From positions 4,402,001 through 4,466,000 of the forward strand of contig NZ_CP022282.1 in NCBI RefSeq assembly GCF_002216065.1: a stretch of DNA of 64,000 bases, written 5' to 3'. A program made the position numbers and the translations under genes. How positions within the stretch are numbered: position 1 is the first letter of the stretch; each line of letters begins with the position of its first letter. The notes below the pieces were generated by a model. That model did not search any database. It was not told the origin of the DNA and worked only from the letters and a program-made list of their open reading frames with translations. The DNA is from Chryseobacterium sp. T16E-39. GTDB lineage: Bacteria; Bacteroidota; Bacteroidia; Flavobacteriales; Weeksellaceae. Below, piece after piece: positions 6,840 to 16,813 of this stretch.

Positions 6840-8042
6840 TTACGAATCATATCCGTTTTTCTTTGCCAATTCCAAAATAGATTTCTCAATTGCTTTTCCA
6901 AGATCGTCAGAATCGGAATTCCCTCTTTTCTTCATTTCGGCATCAATATAATTCTGTCTCTTTTTGGAAAGTTCTTCGATCTCTTTCTGTATTTTGTCTC
7001 TATCAGCGGATTTTTTAATTACCAGTTTCTTTACTTCTTCTTTACTTTTACCTTTTAGCTCAGCAGGAAGTTCACTTTCTTTAACGGTTGTAATGAAATT
7101 GACATCCTTTTCTGCCTTGTCTACAAGATCCCAGTGATCGTTCTTATAGGCATTCTTTTTACTCTTGGCCACAGTTCTTTCTACAGCGTTGGAAGCCGAT
7201 TGGATTTCTGCATTTTTATCCTGCATTGCCTGTTTGCTTTTGTATTCCGAGCCCCTGCTTCCATAATAGATATAAGTGTCATTGAGCTTTGTGTTGCATT
7301 CTGAGATTCGGATATCATACGGTGTTTCAATGTATATTACTTTTCTGTCGCTATCAATATTAAAGTACTTACCGTCACCAGCGATCGCTCCGTTTTGCCA
7401 AAAAGATTCTATTCCTTCATTTCTGTCACCACAAAAAATAGTATTGGTATAGATCTTTTTTGCTTTGGCAGATGAAATCACTTCCTTGTATTTAATTTTT
7501 CCCTGATCGAAGGGCTCATTTCCTGCAATATAGATCAGCTTCATACTCTTTTCATTTTTATCCCAGTTCAGGTTCATGGTTGCGTCCCGGATTACGGCAC
7601 CACAGTATTCACTTCCCCCATTGGTTCTTAAGGCAAATAGCTTTTCGGAAACCAGATCTAAATCCTGTGTCAGGGGAGTAACCTGCCGGATGAAATTTTC
7701 ATCCCGAATCCCGTCGTTCCCGTATTCATAAAGAGCAATTTCTATCTGTGGGGCTTTTCCATCATATTTTAAGGTTGTCAGTGTATTGACGATATTCCAT
7801 AATCTTGATTTTGCCTGGTCGATCAGCCCATCCATACTGTTTGAGGTATCTAATAAAAGCGCAACCTGGATTTTATTATCCTTTGATATGGCAGGTTCTA
7901 CTGGAGTCAAAGCCGTACTTTGTATCGTTATGGGTTCGGTTGCCGGATTGTTACTTTTTCCGGTACAACGAATCTCTGCAAGGCTATTCGAGCTTAAAAA
8001 AGCGGTGCCTATTGTCAATGTTAAAATTTTAAAAGTTGTCAT
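6840..8042 (-). CDS. von Willebrand factor A domain protein, secreted
   Basis: 400 aa with a signal peptide (residues 1-22). The vWA domain follows, with MIDAS motif DTSNS at 65-69 inside VALLLDTSNSMDGL. The C-terminal third is charged and predicted coiled-coil. Such proteins bind metal-dependent ligands at the cell surface or in the periplasm; the partner is unknown. The start is 20 bp after the stop of the DUF4139 gene, so the two form an operon. They share the upstream promoter and the candidate LytTR box at 9721-9750. Confidence 0.88.
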   Translation of the reverse strand: MTTFKILTLTIGTAFLSSNSLAEIRCTGKSNNPATEPITIQSTALTPVEPAISKDNKIQVALLLDTSNSMDGLIDQAKSRLWNIVNTLTTLKYDGKAPQIEIALYEYGNDGIRDENFIRQVTPLTQDLDLVSEKLFALRTNGGSEYCGAVIRDATMNLNWDKNEKSMKLIYIAGNEPFDQGKIKYKEVISSAKAKKIYTNTIFCGDRNEGIESFWQNGAIAGDGKYFNIDSDRKVIYIETPYDIRISECNTKLNDTYIYYGSRGSEYKSKQAMQDKNAEIQSASNAVERTVAKSKKNAYKNDHWDLVDKAEKDVNFITTVKESELPAELKGKSKEEVKKLVIKKSADRDKIQKEIEELSKKRQNYIDAEMKKRGNSDSDDLGKAIEKSILELAKKNGYDS

Positions 8043-8062: not shown

Positions 8063-9661
8063 TTATCTACTGTAATATTGAATTTGCATGTCTTTCGGAT
8101 ATTTTACTTCAAAAGAAAAGCTAATGGTATCCGAACTTCCACTGTTGATTTTTCTGTTCCAAAGGATGCTTCCTGTTTTCTCATCTAAATTTCCATTACC
8201 TATTTCCAGAGACTTTACGGAGATTTTAGAATTTTCACTGATTGGAAGCTGATCGAGGATTTCGAGATCAATACTTTCTTTCGTGTTGTTTCTGATATGT
8301 ATCTGGTAAGATTCCGTTTCCCATTTATTTGAACTCAGTGTTTTCTGTGAAGTTTTATCTTCCTGTTTTATTCTTTTTACTGTAATTCTTTCATCAACAC
8401 CAAGGGAAATTGGGAATTCGTCTTTAATATAATTGCTTGTAATATTTGTTTTCCCGATATAATTATCTTCAAAATAGATATTGGCTTCACCAGAGATCAG
8501 GTTGAGGTTTTGCCAGTTTTTCACAAAAGCCATCAGGAATACCTGGTTATTGAGTTTCGGTACTGTGTGGTATTTGTAAGTGGCATTTACTTCTTTTTTG
8601 TCTAATATCACATATTGCTCCTTTTCCTGACTTACAATCGTCTGATTAAACTTCAGTTCATACATCACGTTCATTTGATTGTCAGATACTGTTGCTACAG
8701 GAACCTGGCTTACTGAAGCAACTTCCTCAGCCCGCATCTGGTATGCATTGGTCATATCTGCTTTTGCTTTCATAGAATATCCTGCCAGTTCTTTTTTCGA
8801 GTCGTATGCAGTATATTCCGCGACATACAGTGGAGACAAAATAGGCCGGTTCTGATTATATGAAGGTTTGTAGGTCGAAACAAAAAGTTTTACATTGTTC
8901 CAGTCCTGACCTGTTTTCTGATATATTTTTCCTTTGTATGCAATCTCAAGAGGTTTCTTTGTAGATTCTGCACGCAGATCGTAAGATGGGACCCAGCCGG
9001 CATTAGAAACAATATAACTTACGCCCAGGCTGATGCTCATTTCACGATCAGCAAGGATCTCAAGAAGAAGTTCTTTTTTATTTTGATTTTTATGAGTCTG
9101 TTCTTCATTGAATTGTTTATTGATCTTTGCGATACTTTCGTCGAATCCCATTTTCTGTTCATTAAGTAAGAATAGTTGGTTATCAATTTCAAGCATCCTT
9201 TTTCTGTAAAATTCAGTCAGTTTGATCAGCTGATCCTGTGGAGTCGACTTATCATTAGTAGAAACCTTCAGGTTGTCATTAATAATATTTTGCTCGCCGG
9301 TAAGGTTCTTAATTTGAATATTGAGCAAGCTGATCTGTCTCTGGAGTTTTTTCTTTTCATCTTCCAGCTTTTTTTCACCCTCCGACATTTCATCATCTTT
9401 CAGATAATTACTCTGTGGAGTGATGGATAAGAGGGTTGTATTTTTTTCAAGATTAATTTTGTATGTATTTTCATCAATATCATTAGGAAGGCTGATGATC
9501 CTTACCGTATTCTTTCCTTTTTGTAAGGAAATAGGAGTGCTGCCAAAAACTTTGGCGCCTTGTAAGAATAGGGTGGCTTGCTTGACCTCAATTTCTTTTT
9601 TTATCTCCTGCGATTTAAAAAGAGAAACAGAAAGGCTGAGGAGTAATAAGAAGTATTTCAT
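8063..9661 (-). CDS. DUF4139 (mucoidy inhibitor A-like) protein
   Basis: 532 aa with a signal peptide (MKYFLLLLSLSVSLFKSQ). An N-terminal DUF4140-like strand region comes first, then a coiled coil at about 95-180, then a long beta-rich DUF4139 domain (VSYIVSNAGWVPSYDLRA ... KTGQDWNNVKLFVST). The family is named after MuiA, linked to mucoid phenotypes, but has no defined reaction. It is the first gene of an operon with the vWA protein. The promoter at 9686-9693 and a 9-12-9 direct repeat lie at the same spacing as for the SIMPL gene. Confidence 0.88.
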   Translation of the reverse strand: MKYFLLLLSLSVSLFKSQEIKKEIEVKQATLFLQGAKVFGSTPISLQKGKNTVRIISLPNDIDENTYKINLEKNTTLLSITPQSNYLKDDEMSEGEKKLEDEKKKLQRQISLLNIQIKNLTGEQNIINDNLKVSTNDKSTPQDQLIKLTEFYRKRMLEIDNQLFLLNEQKMGFDESIAKINKQFNEEQTHKNQNKKELLLEILADREMSISLGVSYIVSNAGWVPSYDLRAESTKKPLEIAYKGKIYQKTGQDWNNVKLFVSTYKPSYNQNRPILSPLYVAEYTAYDSKKELAGYSMKAKADMTNAYQMRAEEVASVSQVPVATVSDNQMNVMYELKFNQTIVSQEKEQYVILDKKEVNATYKYHTVPKLNNQVFLMAFVKNWQNLNLISGEANIYFEDNYIGKTNITSNYIKDEFPISLGVDERITVKRIKQEDKTSQKTLSSNKWETESYQIHIRNNTKESIDLEILDQLPISENSKISVKSLEIGNGNLDEKTGSILWNRKINSGSSDTISFSFEVKYPKDMQIQYYSR

Positions 9662-9685: not shown

Positions 9686-9693
9686 TAAAATTA
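9686..9693 (-). promoter_or_regulatory. Promoter of DUF4139-vWA operon
   Basis: On the minus strand, TAATTTTA (7 of 8 to TAnnTTTG) is followed by CTTTAGAATTT. The same 19-base block, with one difference, occurs upstream of the SIMPL gene, again 27 bases from the direct repeat. Confidence 0.55.
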
Positions 9694-9720: not shown

Positions 9721-9750
9721 ACTTGGTGAGTGTTCGCTTTGACTTGGTGA
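9721..9750 (-). promoter_or_regulatory. Candidate LytTR-type direct repeat, site 1
   Basis: ACTTGGTGA, a 12-base spacer, then ACTTGGTGA (TCACCAAGT twice on the minus strand). The 21-bp period is typical of LytTR response-regulator operators. It begins 60 bp upstream of the DUF4139 start codon. Confidence 0.7.
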
Positions 9751-9766
9751 ATGAACAGAGAGAGAA

Positions 9767-9793
9767 AAAGACAGCTCTTTTGAACTGCCTTTT
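9767..9793 (-). terminator. Terminator of SIMPL gene
   Basis: On the minus strand AAAGGCAGTTC/GAGCTGTCTTT pair with two wobble positions around an AAAA loop, followed by T-rich sequence. Confidence 0.7.
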
Positions 9794-9801
9794 TACTTGT
9801 T

Positions 9802-10476
9802 TTAAAGTATCTCGTATCTTGTTTTAATGCTATACTTTAATTTAATATTTTCAATATTGTCGAACGAGTAGTCAACTCCTGCATCGGCTTCCATTTGTGC
9901 ATTACCTGATTTTCTCATGTAGGCTGCCATAGGTACAACAGTATCGCTGGTATAGTCTTCTATTTCTACAATTTCCAGAGGAGCACCTACCTTTTTACCC
10001 ATACTTTCCAGTAAATAATCAGCCTTTTCTTTAGCTGCTTTCAAAGCATTGATCTTTACGGTTTTTCTGAAATCGGCAATTTTGGTGTTTTTTACTTCCG
10101 AAATATTCAGGTTGGTTACCCATTTTTGGTTTAGTCCTTCGAATACCTTACTTAGATTAGTTTTTGCATTCACTTTAAACTGAAAGCTCTTGGTAAATTT
10201 GTTTGTTTTTGAATAAAGATTCTGGTACATCGATTTGAAGGTAATATCTTCATTTTTTACACCATTGCTTTTTAGAGTTTCAAACAGTTTCTTTTCATTC
10301 TCTGCCAGCTCATTTTTGTTATCAGCTTTTATTCCGATATTGAAGATGATTTCATCCGGTTCAACTTCCATTTCAGCAACTCCTGTTACTTCAATTGCAT
10401 TTTTCTTCATTTCCTGTGCGCTTATTAAACTTCCTGCTGTAAGGAATCCGATTAATAAAAAATGTCTCAATTTCAT
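9802..10476 (-). CDS. SIMPL (DUF541) domain protein
   Basis: 224 aa with a signal peptide (MKLRHFLLIGFLTAGSLISAQ). The SIMPL domain shows the typical opening IEVTGVAEMEVEPDEIIFNIGI, and ALKAAKEKADYLLESMGKKVG late in the domain. Members are periplasmic/outer-membrane proteins with no settled activity, often linked to oxidative or envelope stress. It has its own promoter and terminator and carries candidate LytTR site 2, so it probably responds to the same signal as the DUF4139-vWA operon. Confidence 0.9.
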   Translation of the reverse strand: MKLRHFLLIGFLTAGSLISAQEMKKNAIEVTGVAEMEVEPDEIIFNIGIKADNKNELAENEKKLFETLKSNGVKNEDITFKSMYQNLYSKTNKFTKSFQFKVNAKTNLSKVFEGLNQKWVTNLNISEVKNTKIADFRKTVKINALKAAKEKADYLLESMGKKVGAPLEIVEIEDYTSDTVVPMAAYMRKSGNAQMEADAGVDYSFDNIENIKLKYSIKTRYEIL

Positions 10477-10500
10477 AATTTTTTGTTTTAAATTCTGAAG

Positions 10501-10508
10501 TAAAATTA
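10501..10508 (-). promoter_or_regulatory. Promoter of SIMPL gene
   Basis: TAATTTTA on the minus strand followed by CTTCAGAATTT. This is near-identical to the DUF4139 promoter and again 27 bases from the direct-repeat box. Confidence 0.55.
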
Positions 10509-10535
10509 GCGTGATTGAAAACCGGAAATGAAGAG

Positions 10536-10565
10536 ACTTGGTGAAATGAAGTTTTCACTTGGTGA
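10536..10565 (-). promoter_or_regulatory. Candidate LytTR-type direct repeat, site 2
   Basis: ACTTGGTGA-(12)-ACTTGGTGA, beginning exactly 60 bp upstream of the SIMPL start codon, the same distance as site 1. Confidence 0.7.
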
Positions 10566-10570
10566 AAGAC

Positions 10571-10600
10571 AAAAAAAACGACAGCTGGTGAGAACTGTCG
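10571..10600 (-). terminator. Terminator of amidohydrolase gene
   Basis: CGACAG/CTGTCG stem; A-run 10571-10578 gives the T tract on the minus strand. T residues on the other side too could make it bidirectional. Confidence 0.75.
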
Positions 10601-10610
10601 CTTTTTTTAT

Positions 10611-10666
10611 TAAAAGATTAAAAGATTAAAAGATTAAAAGATTAAAAGATTAAAAGATTAAAAGAG
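10611..10666. repeat. 8-bp tandem repeat, seven units
   Basis: Six perfect copies of TAAAAGAT and a seventh with one change (TAAAAGAG). It lies between the terminator and the 3' end of the amidohydrolase gene. Three 7-bp ACTTTCA units follow at 10688-10708. A likely slippage-prone microsatellite. Confidence 0.95.
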
Positions 10667-10721
10667 CTTTCTAAACACTAATTTTACACTTTCAACTTTC
10701 AACTTTCAATTTCCCAGATGA

Positions 10722-12476
10722 TTACGGTAAAAAGTAAACCTTCGAAATCTTATTATCCTTTATCTCATAAATAGCGGTTCCTTCCACTTTTACGTTTTTT
10801 CGAAACCCTGAAACACTTTCCTTATCTATAACGAAATTACCATGGATGATTCTGTTTTTGATTTCACAATGCAGTTCCGGTACTCTGTCAAACATGGCAC
10901 TGTAACTTTTTCTCATTGCTTCTTTCCCTTTGCTGATTAATTTATCAGGGAAAGTATATAACTCCACATCTTCAGAATAAGGTTCCAGAAAAGCATCAAT
11001 ATTCCTTGCATTATAAGCGTTCAACTGTTGTTGAGCAAGAATCTCAGGTGTTACCTTCAGAATTTTATTTGCCTCTAATGGCTGTCCGTTTTTAAAAACC
11101 ATTTCGATATGAGTAAGATGATCTAAGTTTTCGCTTGGATCTGAACTCAGAAGTACCATATCTGCAATTTTTCCTGGTGTAATACTTCCCGAACTATTTT
11201 CTTTATTAAATATTTTTGCAGGATTGATCGTGGCTGACTGAAGAACCTGCCAGTTGGTCATTCCGCTTTCTTTCATTGCTTTTAATTCTGCAATAAAAGA
11301 GGTGGCGTGCTGAGTTGCTATATTTCCGGCATCGGTACCAGCAGCAATAGTGACTCCTCCATCTGAAAGCTTTTTTAAATTGATGACTCTTATAGAATCT
11401 TTTTTTCGGGCATAAGCATCTATTTGAGGCTGATTAAAGCGCTTTTTCAACTTATTGACTGTCGTTGAATCCGAAGAATCAGACAAATGTTTCAGGTCAT
11501 AGATGGAGCCAACCGTTGTTGGGTTTGCATTCTCCAGTTCATAAGTGTTGTACTGTTTTTTCTGTGCATAGGTTTTATAATAGTTATCCATTACCGTAAG
11601 GGTAGGGCTCAAAACAACTTTTTTTGATTTCAGGAGTTTAATAAAATCATCCGGTACAACTTCATCTTCTACATCGTGGACTAAAAAGTCAGCACCATTT
11701 TGCACAGCAATTTGTGCCGTTAGTCTCTCTGTAGCATGTACTGCAACTTTTAAATTGTTTTTGTGAGCTTCATCGATGGTTGCTTTTATAATAGGCTCAT
11801 ATTTTTTTGCAGTGGCTTCCATATCTTTAGGATCTGCTATTACAATATACCATATCTTAATAAAATCAGGTTTATAAGGAAGCTGCTCCTGAACCATTTT
11901 TTTTGCTTCTTCAATGGATTTCACCAACTTAAAAGGTTCATTTTTTTCAAGATTTTTGAAAGCATCGGGTTCGTATGTTGTGATAAGAGGACCCGTCATA
12001 TATACAGATGGTAAAGTCGTATTTTTTGAGTATGAATCCCTAAGCTTAAGGAAATTATAGGTTGCGCCAGCATCGATTACAGAAGTAATTCCGCTTTTCA
12101 GATAACGCAGTAGGAAATCTTCCATATTCTGATGCACCCAATCGATCTCTTTTTCATACGGAGCCTGTTTTCTGAGATCAAATGCATCAGGTCTTGTATA
12201 TAAACCTCCACTTTGAAAGAAATGAACGTGGGCATCAGTCATTCCTGGCATCAGAAATTTACCTTTTCCATCAATGACCGTTGCATTTTGAGGAACTTTT
12301 ATTTTGTTGACAGGTTTGATCTCGGTAACAATGTCTTTATTAATGACTACAGTTTGGTTGGGGATCATTTTTTTATTGATAACGTCCACAACGGTTACAT
12401 TCTGGATATAGGTTTGCGCATGGACTTTAATGGTCAGGAAACACAGGATGAATAATAAGTTCAGGGAGGTTTTCAT
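10722..12476 (-). CDS. Secreted amidohydrolase with C-terminal NTF2-like domain
   Basis: 584 aa with a signal peptide (residues 1-20). The amidohydrolase (imidazolonepropionase/prolidase-like) domain carries metal ligands in MPGMTDAHVHF (H83, H85), later histidines in VAVHATE and FLVHDVED, and the aspartate in AAGTDAGN. From about residue 475 a SnoaL/NTF2-like domain is fused (AYNARNIDAFLEPYSEDVELY). It may hydrolyse cyclic amides or dipeptides in the periplasm; the substrate is unknown. It is divergent from the histidine kinase at 12633, with a direct-repeat box between them. Confidence 0.88.
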   Translation of the reverse strand: MKTSLNLLFILCFLTIKVHAQTYIQNVTVVDVINKKMIPNQTVVINKDIVTEIKPVNKIKVPQNATVIDGKGKFLMPGMTDAHVHFFQSGGLYTRPDAFDLRKQAPYEKEIDWVHQNMEDFLLRYLKSGITSVIDAGATYNFLKLRDSYSKNTTLPSVYMTGPLITTYEPDAFKNLEKNEPFKLVKSIEEAKKMVQEQLPYKPDFIKIWYIVIADPKDMEATAKKYEPIIKATIDEAHKNNLKVAVHATERLTAQIAVQNGADFLVHDVEDEVVPDDFIKLLKSKKVVLSPTLTVMDNYYKTYAQKKQYNTYELENANPTTVGSIYDLKHLSDSSDSTTVNKLKKRFNQPQIDAYARKKDSIRVINLKKLSDGGVTIAAGTDAGNIATQHATSFIAELKAMKESGMTNWQVLQSATINPAKIFNKENSSGSITPGKIADMVLLSSDPSENLDHLTHIEMVFKNGQPLEANKILKVTPEILAQQQLNAYNARNIDAFLEPYSEDVELYTFPDKLISKGKEAMRKSYSAMFDRVPELHCEIKNRIIHGNFVIDKESVSGFRKNVKVEGTAIYEIKDNKISKVYFLP

Positions 12477-12504
12477 GAGTTTCGTTTATAAATTTGTTAA
12501 TTCA

Positions 12505-12512
12505 CAAATATA
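12505..12512 (-). promoter_or_regulatory. Promoter of amidohydrolase gene
   Basis: TATATTTG on the minus strand, a perfect -7 element, 28 bases upstream of the start codon. Confidence 0.6.
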
Positions 12513-12546
12513 TGAAAACGGATGTATTGGTTATAATCACTTTAAA

Positions 12547-12576
12547 ACTTGGTGAAATGCAGTTTTGACTTGGTGA
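12547..12576. promoter_or_regulatory. Candidate LytTR-type direct repeat, site 3
   Basis: ACTTGGTGA-(12)-ACTTGGTGA between the divergent amidohydrolase and histidine kinase genes. It is oriented as in sites 1 and 2 relative to the amidohydrolase. It is 29 bases from the kinase -7 element, so it could serve either or both promoters. Confidence 0.7.
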
Positions 12577-12605
12577 ATGATAAGAGACTATATATAAAGT
12601 TTTAC

Positions 12606-12613
12606 TTACTTTG
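12606..12613 (+). promoter_or_regulatory. Promoter of histidine kinase gene
   Basis: TTACTTTG, one mismatch to TAnnTTTG, 19 bases before the GTG start. Confidence 0.5.
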
Positions 12614-12632
12614 CATTATAGATTAAAGGTAA

Positions 12633-14414
12633 GTGAAGCTATTTTTGAAAATAATACTGATCATTACACTGGCATTGGGACATTTTTCCTTTGCTCAGGA
12701 TTCTACGCGGGTTTTAAAGGCTATAAAATCAGCATCTAAACTTAAAAAAGCGGTTGATAATAACGATAATAAAAGTGTTGCAGATACCTATGTTGGAATG
12801 GCAAATGATTATTATAACCAGGGAAATTATGCGAAAAGTGAAGAATATCTGATCAAAGCCAAAAATCTGTATGAGAACCTGAATGATAAAAAAAATATTG
12901 AGCTTGTCACCCGAAGATTAGCACAATCACAGGAAAAGCAAAATAAGATAACTCCTGCGATAATCAATTATAGTAGAGCGGCAGAGATAGGTTATTCAAA
13001 GGAAAGCAGAAGCGTTAATTCAAATGATGTTACAAGGCTTTCATCACCTTCTCAGGAAGCAAAAGCGGAGGCTATTCAAAGTAATATTGATATTAGTAGG
13101 AAGGACAATGAAAAAGCTGATCTGGCGGCCAGTTACAGCCAGTTAGCTGATGTAAATATTCAACAAAATAATATTCCTAAAGCTGAGGAGAACCTGAAAA
13201 GTGCCTACACCATTTCTAAAAAGCAGTTGGAACCGCAACAAGCTTTAGAGATCAATCAGAAACTAACGAATTTTTACGTAGATAATAAAGATTTTGATAA
13301 AGCAATTGAAGCCAAGAAAAAAGTTCTGAAAGAGGATTTTGTAAAAGATGACTCCCAGAAAAAAGTGGAGCAGATCCAGGAGCTTGCAGATATCTATATT
13401 AAAAAGAATGATCCTAAAAATGCCATTGAAGCATTAAAAAGTGCATATGGAATTGCTCTGGAAAAAGGACACACCTTGGAAGCCCAAAAAAGCGTTAAGA
13501 GATTGGACAGTCTTTACAGTGTCTCCGAAAACACCGATGCTTCGGTAGAGCTGTATAGGGATTTCCTTGGAAAACTTCCTGATCTCGTTTCAAAAGACAG
13601 AAGTCTGGTGGATAATAAAGTCCTTGAAGATACAGAACAAAGAATCTCACAGTTAGAAAAGGAAAGAGAACTAAAAGATGAACTAATCAGGAAGAAAAAC
13701 ATCTTTAATTATGGTCTTATCGGAACGTTGATTTTATTACTGGGATTAGTAGGTTTTATCTTCTGGACATTAAAAAAAGTTCAGATCAAGAATAAGAAGA
13801 TCGCTTTGCAGTCACTCCGTCGGGAGATGAACCCTCATTTTATTTTTAACAGCTTAAACAGTGTTAATCAATTCATCGCTACCAATAATGAATTGGAAGC
13901 CAATCAGTATTTAACCAAGTTTTCAAAACTTATGCGGGGCGTTATGGAGAATTCGGCTGAGGATTTCATTCCTTTCCAGCAGGAACTCGATCTGTTGCAA
14001 AATTATTTGGCATTGGAAAAAACACGTTTTGCGGATAAATTTGATTTCGAAATCAATGTAGATGAAAACCTTAATTTACAAAGCCTACTGGTTCCCGGAA
14101 TGCTGGTTCAGCCATTTTTGGAAAATGCTATCTGGCATGGTTTGAGATATCGAAAGGAAAAAGGATTTTTAAAGCTAAGTTTTACAAGAAATGATCAGTA
14201 TTTGAAAATAAGTGTTGATGACGACGGAATTGGAATTGATGAAAGTAAAAAGCTGAAAACACAACATCAGAAAACAAGAGAAGGACGCGGAATGAAAAAT
14301 ACGATGGAGCGGATTGCTTTACTAAACGATTTGTATAAACGGGATATCCAATGTAAAGTGACAGATAAAAAAAATGAACAGGGTGTCACCGTAGAAATAC
14401 AGTATAAACTGTAA
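12633..14414 (+). CDS. LytS-type sensor histidine kinase with TPR sensor
   Basis: 593 aa starting at GTG. The signal peptide directly after it (MKLFLKIILIITLALGHFSFAQ) supports this start. Residues about 40-330 are TPR-like helical repeats outside the membrane. A coiled coil follows, then one transmembrane segment (about 360-380). The His_kinase domain (REMNPHFIFNSLNSVNQF) has phosphoacceptor H402, followed by an HATPase with LENAIWHGLRY and DDDGIGID. It should phosphorylate the LytTR regulator at 15006; a DUF6326 gene lies between them. The signal is unknown. Confidence 0.93.
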   Translation: MKLFLKIILIITLALGHFSFAQDSTRVLKAIKSASKLKKAVDNNDNKSVADTYVGMANDYYNQGNYAKSEEYLIKAKNLYENLNDKKNIELVTRRLAQSQEKQNKITPAIINYSRAAEIGYSKESRSVNSNDVTRLSSPSQEAKAEAIQSNIDISRKDNEKADLAASYSQLADVNIQQNNIPKAEENLKSAYTISKKQLEPQQALEINQKLTNFYVDNKDFDKAIEAKKKVLKEDFVKDDSQKKVEQIQELADIYIKKNDPKNAIEALKSAYGIALEKGHTLEAQKSVKRLDSLYSVSENTDASVELYRDFLGKLPDLVSKDRSLVDNKVLEDTEQRISQLEKERELKDELIRKKNIFNYGLIGTLILLLGLVGFIFWTLKKVQIKNKKIALQSLRREMNPHFIFNSLNSVNQFIATNNELEANQYLTKFSKLMRGVMENSAEDFIPFQQELDLLQNYLALEKTRFADKFDFEINVDENLNLQSLLVPGMLVQPFLENAIWHGLRYRKEKGFLKLSFTRNDQYLKISVDDDGIGIDESKKLKTQHQKTREGRGMKNTMERIALLNDLYKRDIQCKVTDKKNEQGVTVEIQYKL

Positions 14415-14468
14415 GCAGTTTTCGAAAATATTTTCAGGACTCATTGTAACTTAATTGGAAATGGTATT

Positions 14469-14485
14469 GTCTATAAGCTATAGAC
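14469..14485. repeat. Inverted repeat before DUF6326 gene
   Basis: GTCTATA-AGC-TATAGAC, a perfect 7-bp inverted repeat 27 bases upstream of the ATG at 14512. It could be an operator or a small mRNA hairpin within the kinase-regulator transcript. Confidence 0.5.
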
Positions 14486-14511
14486 TTCTTAACATAAAAA
14501 CTATTTTTACA

Positions 14512-14940
14512 ATGAAAACTAATATCTCTGGAAAATTAGAAGATGCTCCTGTAAACATTAAGATCAAACTTGCAGGGCTTTGGACTTCTGTAACATTATG
14601 TTATCTGTACGGTGATTATTTTGAACTGTATACCCCTGGAAAAGTACATGGTCTGGTAGAGGGGACTAATCTACTGGATACTCCATTAAAACTTTTTTTT
14701 GCAGCATTACTCCTGTCCATTCCTGCGGTGATGGTATTTCTTTCTCTTGTATTAAAGCCTGGAATTAACAGGATTCTTAATATTTCTGTGGGAATATTTT
14801 TTACAGCAATTATGGTGTTGATAGGAGTGACTTCAGTGTCCCGTTGGTATGGATTCTATGTGTTTTTAGCAGCTGTTGAAAGTATTATTACCCTATTAAT
14901 TGTGTGGTATTCCTGGAAGTGGAAGAGGATTCATTCTTAA
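14512..14940 (+). CDS. DUF6326 family membrane protein
   Basis: 142 aa from the ATG at 14512. The in-frame ATG at 14455 would add a non-conserved leader across an inverted repeat. It has four hydrophobic segments and the family-like opening VNIKIKLAGLWTSVTLCYLYGDYFELY. No function is known. Its place between a histidine kinase and its LytTR regulator suggests an accessory role in signalling or co-expression, but that is inference. Confidence 0.75.
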   Translation: MKTNISGKLEDAPVNIKIKLAGLWTSVTLCYLYGDYFELYTPGKVHGLVEGTNLLDTPLKLFFAALLLSIPAVMVFLSLVLKPGINRILNISVGIFFTAIMVLIGVTSVSRWYGFYVFLAAVESIITLLIVWYSWKWKRIHS

Positions 14941-15005
14941 GTTGTTTTTAAAGCTAAATATTTATATTTTTACAGGGAAACCGGACACTAGCCGGATCTG
15001 TATCA

Positions 15006-15740
15006 ATGAAAATAAAAGCGGTAATTGTAGATGACGAAGCGATAGCAAGAGATGTTCTGAGGAATTATCTCACGAAGTACTGTCCCCAGGTTGAAATTCT
15101 GGGTGAGGCTGAAAACATAAAAGATGCTGTCCCTCTTATTGCTGAACAACGGCCCGAACTTGTTTTTTTGGATGTCGAAATGCCTTATGGAAATGCTTTC
15201 GATGTTTTGGAGGCCACTAAGGATTACCACTATGAAACTATTTTCATTACAGCTTTTTCTCAATATTCTTTACAGGCGCTTAATAAATCAGCGAGTTATT
15301 ATATCTTAAAACCGATAGACATTCAGGAACTCATCCTTGCAGTTAATAAAGTGGTAGAAAGTCTGGAGAAGAAGGAGGAACTCAACCGGAATAAAATTCT
15401 GCTTGAAAATTTAAAATTAAAGCCTGAAAAGCAACAGCTCATTTTACCAACTCTGCAGGGATTTGATGTTGTAAAAACAGAAGATATTGTAAGGTTGCAG
15501 GCAGATGGTAATTTTACCCAGGTCTATCTCACAGATGGATCTAAAAAGATGGTGTGCAGGTTTTTAAAACATTTTGACGATCTCCTCGAAGCACCATTTG
15601 TAAGAGTTCACCGCTCACATATTATCAATACAGGTTTTGTGAAATCCTATCATAAAAGTGGAACGGTAACACTCCTGGATGAAGCCGAAATTGAGGTTTC
15701 CGGGACTTTTAAAGATGCTTTCCTGAAAGTTTTCTCTTAG
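15006..15740 (+). CDS. LytTR family response regulator
   Basis: 244 aa. The receiver domain (1-125) has DD at 9-10, phosphoacceptor D56 in LVFLDVEMP, T in FITAF and K in YILKPID. The LytTR DNA-binding domain (about 145-244) includes VRLQADGNFTQVYL and FVRVHRSHIINTGFV. It is the natural partner of the HK at 12633. LytTR proteins bind paired 9-bp direct repeats with a 21-bp period. The three repeats at 9721, 10536 and 12547 fit this and define its candidate targets. Confidence 0.95.
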   Translation: MKIKAVIVDDEAIARDVLRNYLTKYCPQVEILGEAENIKDAVPLIAEQRPELVFLDVEMPYGNAFDVLEATKDYHYETIFITAFSQYSLQALNKSASYYILKPIDIQELILAVNKVVESLEKKEELNRNKILLENLKLKPEKQQLILPTLQGFDVVKTEDIVRLQADGNFTQVYLTDGSKKMVCRFLKHFDDLLEAPFVRVHRSHIINTGFVKSYHKSGTVTLLDEAEIEVSGTFKDAFLKVFS

Positions 15741-16352: not shown

Positions 16353-16813
16353 TGATAGGGCGGATGTGTTCATTTGTTGGTTTGCGAAATCGTAAAACTG
16401 TTGATTCGTAAAATCGTAAATGGGTTGAGGGATTAATGGTAGAGTAATGAATAAAAATGTGGAAAAGCTGATTGAAAAAGAGCGGAAAGGCTGAAAGGCA
16501 AAATCGTAAAAGTGTTGATTCGTAAAATTGTAAAATGGGTTGAGGGATTAATGGTAGAGTAATGAATAAAAACGAGGATAAGCTGATTGCAAAAGGGCGG
16601 AAAGGCAAAATTGCGAAATGGTTGATGGGTAAAATCGTTTCGCAATTTTGTGATTTATAACTTAAATGGTGTTGAGATCTAAACCTTTTATCTTTTCACC
16701 ATCTGCCATTCGTTGATTCTGCCATTTTACAAATTAACGATTCCGCGATTTTGCTTGCTCTAACCAGAGATTTTCCCGTCATTTGTATTAGATTTTTTCA
16801 AAAAATTGACAAT
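16353..16813. other. Intergenic region with repeat, no gene
   Basis: No supported ORF. Two direct copies of about 110 bp fill most of it (see repeat entry). The rest is low-complexity sequence with recurrent 'gcaattttg' and 'cgattttgc' units. Confidence 0.6.
16400..16620. repeat. Imperfect 114-bp tandem duplication
   Basis: The unit starting GTTGATTCGTAAAAT at 16400 recurs at 16514. Both copies contain GGGTTGAGGGATTAATGG and GTAGAGTAATGAATAAAAA. Differences are scattered substitutions and small indels, so the duplication is not recent. Confidence 0.9.

Follow-up and report, generated by a model that had tools for sequence, protein, structure and literature searches.

Genes of the locus

We examined a window of 64,000 nucleotides of the Chryseobacterium sp. 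T16E-39 genome (C1:4402001-4466000; 4,872,888 bp, one contig) that encodes a predicted TPR-kinase/LytTR pair beside a group of genes on the opposite strand. The plus strand carries a sensor kinase (12633..14414) with TPR repeats, a His_kinase domain (PF06580) and an HATPase_c match that at 24.1 bits lies below its cut-off of 26.4; a DUF6326 protein (14455..14940) present in some relatives only; a response regulator (15006..15740) with a receiver and a LytTR domain, both over cut-off (PF00072, 62.0 bits; PF04397, 41.2 bits); and a lipocalin gene. On the minus strand, a DUF4140/DUF4139 protein of the MuiA family (8063..9661; TIGR02231, 258.9 bits against a cut-off of 112.6) is followed by a vWA-domain protein (6840..8042) as the second gene of a DUF4139-vWA unit, and a SIMPL/DUF541 protein (9802..10476) and an amidohydrolase-SnoaL protein (10722..12476; Amidohydro_1 plus SnoaL) are encoded between this unit and the kinase. 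The gene content that a sequence-only reading had proposed, from the vWA protein to the receiver-LytTR protein, stands as described, as does its suggestion of secreted targets: by eye, the N-termini of the vWA, DUF4139, SIMPL, amidohydrolase and kinase proteins are signal-like. The kinase also has one apparent TM segment by eye.

The kinase retains the EMNPHFIFNSLN motif of PF06580 kinases, and the regulator retains the FLDVEMP aspartate and the LKP lysine, residues whose functional roles we take from general knowledge. A search of solved structures gave matches mainly in the receiver part of the regulator, with no molecule named as a LytTR protein among the best 60 of 97 matches. We also considered and set aside a reading of the locus as a defense system, as a PADLOC scan of five proteins gave weak partial matches only, none convincing (kinase, 16.3 bits; regulator, 25.0 bits), and no match for the vWA, DUF4139 or SIMPL proteins. 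Among the loci of relatives L041-L120, the stretch from kinase to regulator ranges from <100 bp to ~2 kb and holds DUF6326 or other DNA. An intergenic repeat of two imperfect long copies, seen by eye, lies at 16384-16650 of the window, ahead of the next large plus-strand gene.

Three exact direct repeats beside the predicted target genes

The direct repeat ACTTGGTGA-N12-ACTTGGTGA occurs three times on the plus strand of the window with both half-sites exact (box 1, 9721-9750; box 2, 10536-10565; box 3, 12547-12576), where a mean of 0.07 is expected by chance at ≤3 mismatches. Searching the whole genome returned three exact copies, none with 1-2 mismatches and seven with 3 mismatches, compared with three matches of a reversed-pattern control at 3 mismatches. 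The exact 9-12-9 boxes pointed out from the sequence alone are thus the sole copies at 0-2 mismatches genome-wide, and the motif is not one that is common away from promoters. Single half-sites at ≤1 mismatch are without enrichment in the window (17 versus 13.6 expected), so the signal is the pair at a 21-bp period. Its format agrees with the LytTR-type box that had been proposed, as PMC4847170 describes LytTR sites as a pair of repeats, each 9-11 nt long, set apart by 11-13 nt.

Boxes 1 and 2 are minus-strand features of matching geometry. Box 1 reads towards DUF4139 as TCACCAAGT-N12-TCACCAAGT, and the same box stands upstream of DUF4139 in relatives; box 2 reads towards SIMPL. Each lies, as the earlier reading had it, 60 bp from its start codon (9661 for DUF4139, 10476 for SIMPL) and 27 bp from a minus-strand -7 element TAATTTTA, at 9686..9693 for the DUF4139-vWA unit and 10501..10508 for SIMPL. 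Box 3, to which we assign no strand, has the polarity of boxes 1 and 2 and is positioned at the predicted kinase promoter, 29 bp from a plus-strand kinase -7 element TTACTTTG (12606..12613). It also adjoins the amidohydrolase gene, beginning 71 bp from its start, and the best leftward -7 candidate for this box in the window is TATATTTG at +34.

An inverted repeat drawn from the inner flanks of the half-sites, GTGAAA...TTTCAC, was rejected; the position just ahead of the second half-site is either C or G and the flanks are absent from box 1, and the direct repeat is therefore preferred. A run of short tandem AAAAGATT-type repeats is visible by eye at 10610-10665, in the interval that separates box 2 from the amidohydrolase gene end.

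Conservation and promoter geometry in Chryseobacterium

A site at ≤2 mismatches is present in 140 of 148 genus genomes. Eighty named loci fetched by their kinase (the best 80 of 306 confirmed; all Chryseobacterium, the closest at 86-90% identity), a set that overlaps the genus genomes in species and is not independent of them, hold 211 sites at ≤3 mismatches and 209 at ≤2 mismatches; these 209 share a single polarity throughout, with at least one in every locus. In 77 of these 80 loci, a box is found no more than 200 bp from the kinase ORF start as called.

Distances from box to gene are similarly constrained. Across 90 loci, the site lies 60-62 bp from the DUF4139 start codon in 41 of 44 cases, and distances to the SIMPL start fall into clusters of 60-62 and 67-69 bp in 72 of 81 cases (one value missing). 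We called the -7 element as the best match to TAnnTTTG with at least 5 of 6 letters, a sequence that PMC9723704 gives for the -7 box of sigma-A, spanning -12 to -5. A leftward element at offset 27/28 was found for DUF4139 in 38/39 cases, for SIMPL away from the kinase in 59/66 (7/66 had none by the scoring used) and for vWA in all 15 cases in which that gene comes first after a box; random 60-mers from the same loci, a control not matched for intergenic composition, gave 0.77% at offset 27. Boxes in Chryseobacterium also precede genes for other products. Scanned proteins of 305 and 316 aa are SIMPL-like, and others of 304-338 aa look alike by eye; the remainder are a vWA protein ~460-470 aa long, a rhodanese, a protein of 191 aa that matches no Pfam family and one of ~117 aa that is lipoprotein-like by eye.

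Three near-identical sites within 3 kb might suggest chance or a mobile repeat. The probability of this explanation is next to nil, as the half-sites are kept and the spacers mostly variable across more than 200 sites, the chance expectation is 0.07 and the promoter spacing is fixed; the box surveys of the genus, the family and genus g35 (below) refute it.

The same geometry bears on the direction of control. With the -7 element 27-28 bp away and at -12 to -5, the box lies by arithmetic at about -69 to -40. Because direction is not readable from sequence alone, and because AgrA also acts as a repressor of one gene, at a site immediately downstream of the promoter (PMC4227749), the box might instead be a repressor operator through which the regulator keeps down its targets along with the kinase. 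We consider this highly improbable: the box stands upstream of the -7 element at a fixed spacing, its arithmetic center near -55 is close to that of activating AgrA sites near -60 (PMC4227749), and it overlaps neither the -7 element nor the start site. Activation is the reading that this arrangement favors.

Box 3 and the kinase promoter

Comparison with relatives changed the assignment of box 3. The earlier reading had given it to the amidohydrolase, with possible autoregulation of the kinase, and the relatives disagree: a kinase -7 element at 28/29 accompanies 75 of 80 kinase-side boxes, whereas a -7 element (score ≥5) at 27/28 is present in 0/20 amidohydrolase cases. From this difference, and with the box conserved at this position in Chryseobacterium, site 3 is best read as the predicted promoter of the kinase itself. 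No constant distance separates box and amidohydrolase (from -22 to 197 bp in the values listed), and we discarded this gene as a target that is conserved; in T16E-39 it is probably a neighbor of box 3 rather than part of the conserved set. The opposing assignment, in which the amidohydrolase is under the control of box 3 and the kinase perhaps is not, draws on the short distance to the amidohydrolase start in the window and on a polarity that is the same as at leftward targets. It is nonetheless quite improbable given the missing amidohydrolase -7 elements and given that 22 of 23 kinase-side boxes with a leftward gene at least 200 bp away retain the kinase -7 element at 28/29.

The assignment to the kinase promoter leaves room for a second direction of control. 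Where other genes lie leftward of a kinase-side box, a -7 element at 27/28 is found for 26 of 28 unlabelled targets and 8 of 10 SIMPL genes, which suggests that one box may be able to serve both directions.

Boxes occur with the kinase and are kept at distant targets

In a family sample of 246 genomes (kinase cut-off E up to 1e-60; box cut-off ≤1 mismatch), the kinase occurs in 96 genomes, the box in 96 and both in 94, so that a box is present in 94 of 96 kinase-positive and 2 of 150 kinase-negative genomes. The two boxes without a kinase (G230 and G235) are both within coding frames, and the two kinases without a box at this cut-off belong to G088, where the kinase has a box with 2 mismatches, and G224, which has a diverged repeat. 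Within the genus only, the box is found in 90/91 kinase-positive and 0/8 kinase-negative genomes. Nominal Fisher p values, which ignore shared ancestry and which we do not read as probabilities, are 3.4e-63 (family) and 5.3e-11 (genus only); the genomes share ancestry and the counts are therefore not independent events. The eight box-less Chryseobacterium genomes are the eight kinase-less genomes of the same genus, and in them kinase, regulator orthologue, SIMPL gene and site are all absent together: 0/8 have a SIMPL match, and the best regulator match is 39%, with two genomes having none at the cut-off, compared with 90% or more identity in the six positives tested. Co-occurrence and co-absence thus both support the proposed tie between the boxes and the neighboring TPR-kinase/LytTR pair.

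Boxes are also kept at targets far from the kinase. In G143, 2.0 Mb of contig separate the kinase from SIMPL and from a neighboring gene for a 308-aa product that by eye resembles SIMPL-like proteins; both genes retain their boxes, and the called SIMPL start, unlike the others, is 146 bp from its box. A boxed SIMPL lies 209 kb from the kinase in G053, a boxed DUF4139 18.6 kb away in G079, and in G150, of another genus and with a fragmented assembly, a boxed DUF4139 is on a different contig from the kinase. All five of these boxes have a -7 element at 27 or 28 bp, and their persistence indicates that a box accompanies the promoter of its target instead of being just a feature of the kinase neighborhood.

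Kinases at 44-65% identity occur in five genomes from four other genera of the family. G176 has two exact boxes; G181 has one exact box and one with 2 mismatches; G211 has one box with 1 mismatch and one with 3; and G150 has no box at the kinase, its one exact box being that at DUF4139 elsewhere. In G224, where the regulator is 61% identical, the box is AATGGGTAA twice at a 21-bp period, departing from ACTTGGTGA at three positions that are identical in both halves, with a leftward TAGCTTTG at +28 and no kinase-side -7 element scoring ≥5 at 28/29. A diverged relative (L156:7559-7591) has an exact 12-bp direct repeat, GAATGGGTAAAT, with a 21-bp period upstream of its kinase; here the box itself seems to have changed naturally.

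These distributions also bear on which protein binds the box. Another LytTR protein or an unknown factor could do so with the neighboring pair merely a target, a proposal that gains from the 21 LytTR matches in the T16E-39 genome and from the box at the kinase promoter, as expected of a mere target. We regard it as unlikely, since kinase, regulator orthologue and box are jointly absent in eight genomes, G143 has only 4 LytTR matches and still has boxes, and one genome with a diverged regulator has a diverged box too. The regulator encoded at 15006 is the predicted box-binding protein.

Proposed system and known LytTR regulators

We consider it very probable that the kinase-LytTR pair activates SIMPL, DUF4139-vWA and its own kinase through ACTTGGTGA-N12-ACTTGGTGA, a model that builds on the computed sites, their uniqueness and geometry, their co-occurrence and co-absence with the pair and their persistence at distant targets. 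The kinase, with a TPR region that is probably periplasmic and would act as the sensor, is proposed to phosphorylate the LytTR regulator, which would then bind the box as a head-to-tail pair, between about 40 and 69 bp ahead of the start site and centered near -55. There it probably replaces the -33 element and would recruit sigma-A polymerase to the -7 element 27-28 bp away. In T16E-39 the predicted activated targets are the secreted-looking DUF4139-vWA and SIMPL proteins, and through box 3 the regulator would activate its own kinase in the cell, giving a small and mostly local regulon. Of the LytTR regulon first read from this sequence, the 9-12-9 box, the co-occurrence, the promoter geometry and the box at the kinase promoter hold, and the amidohydrolase as a conserved target falls away.

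To our knowledge, no function is settled in Bacteroidota for SIMPL/DUF541, DUF4139 (MuiA-like) or these vWA proteins. A regulon this compact, with a site that is exact and predictable, would link them mutually and to one sensor, and a boxed promoter could serve as a reporter for seeking the signal, which makes an as yet undescribed response system open to testing.

LytTR two-component systems are already known, and this regulon would be a further member. The YpdA/YpdB and BtsS/BtsR systems have small target sets. The half-site of AgrA differs from that of the Chryseobacterium box, and the agr kinase is AgrC, in place of which the Chryseobacterium system has a TPR kinase. AgrA of Staphylococcus is likewise a LytTR regulator, the dimer of which binds direct repeats upstream of P2 and P3, with promoter-proximal repeats centered near -60 (PMC4227749) as compared with near -55 here; P2 and P3 have separate sites, whereas one Chryseobacterium box can apparently face two promoters. 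YpdB of E. coli also binds a direct repeat (PMC4847170), as predicted for the box here. In E. coli, BtsR activates btsT, a transporter target unlike those in Chryseobacterium, and BtsS is a LytS-type membrane sensor in contrast to the TPR kinase. The regulator scores below cut-off for both BtsR (YehT; NF008677, 102.2 bits against 246) and LytR of LytSR (NF010684, 91.9 bits against 375), and kinase residues 21-246, the TPR region, weakly match FimS of Porphyromonas, one of the TPR-sensor kinases of Bacteroidota (NF053520, 23.2 bits against a cut-off of 600). Among the literature matches listed, from a search that most subscription journals lie outside, we found neither a LytTR site defined in Bacteroidota nor a report of this regulon; PMC6222199 concerns an OmpR-family regulator.

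A related arrangement in genus g35

A kinase 37-48% identical is present in 83 of 398 genomes of genus g35, which belongs to a second family and is taken to be Flavobacterium, at E up to 1e-100. In a first set of 15 genomes (L171-L185), all have boxes at 1-4 mismatches, 21 sites in total, with a leftward -7 element at 27 in 21/21. The best 30 of the 83 loci (L186-L215) each have one box at ≤4 mismatches upstream of the kinase, exact in 7/30 and with a -7 element at 27 in 30/30; no second box was found elsewhere in these 4.7-kb loci, and a reversed-pattern control gave 2 matches in all. As G463 is common to both sets, they comprise 44 distinct genomes, all with the -7 element at 27. The kinase-side -7 element at +29 is not kept (1/30), which makes autoregulation a Chryseobacterium claim. 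The leftward genes of the 30 loci are vWA in 17, none of the query genes in 12 and SIMPL in one (L201); of nine leftward start codons read, eight lie 60-64 bp from the box and the ninth is unreadable. One leftward protein of 443 aa matches SQHop_cyclase_C. The neighbors of the g35 kinase behind the box are a vWA, SIMPL, rhodanese or cyclase-like repeat protein.

More tentatively, and with a likelihood that we place somewhat short of even, the system may extend to an order-wide Flavobacteriales response cassette in which a polar LytTR box faces two divergent promoters and changing secreted proteins. Such a cassette would have a -7 element at 27/28 on one side and at 28/29 on the other, with a slot ~60 bp from the box that may be occupied by SIMPL paralogues, vWA, MuiA-like or rhodanese proteins, a cyclase-like repeat protein or family-less small proteins. 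If this were true, the slot rather than the gene would define the regulon.

One published experiment involves a LytTR gene and a histidine kinase gene in this group. Following coevolution of F. johnsoniae with Burkholderia thailandensis, clones from all five lines carried a mutation in FJOH_RS09515 or FJOH_RS09520 (PMC10197871, Table 2), with FJOH_RS09515 (LytTR) affected in 2 lines and FJOH_RS09520 (histidine kinase, the next locus tag) in 3; the covered parts of the text comment on the LytTR gene only. We find it doubtful that these genes are orthologues of the present pair, and the lead carries no weight here. Base positions published for FJOH_RS09515 fit 0/15 orthologues at first-ATG starts, a mismatch that moving the start by a codon or two could resolve, and in two single-contig genomes of ~6 Mb the kinase sits about 15% of the way along, where the FJOH locus tag suggests, by estimate, about 37%.
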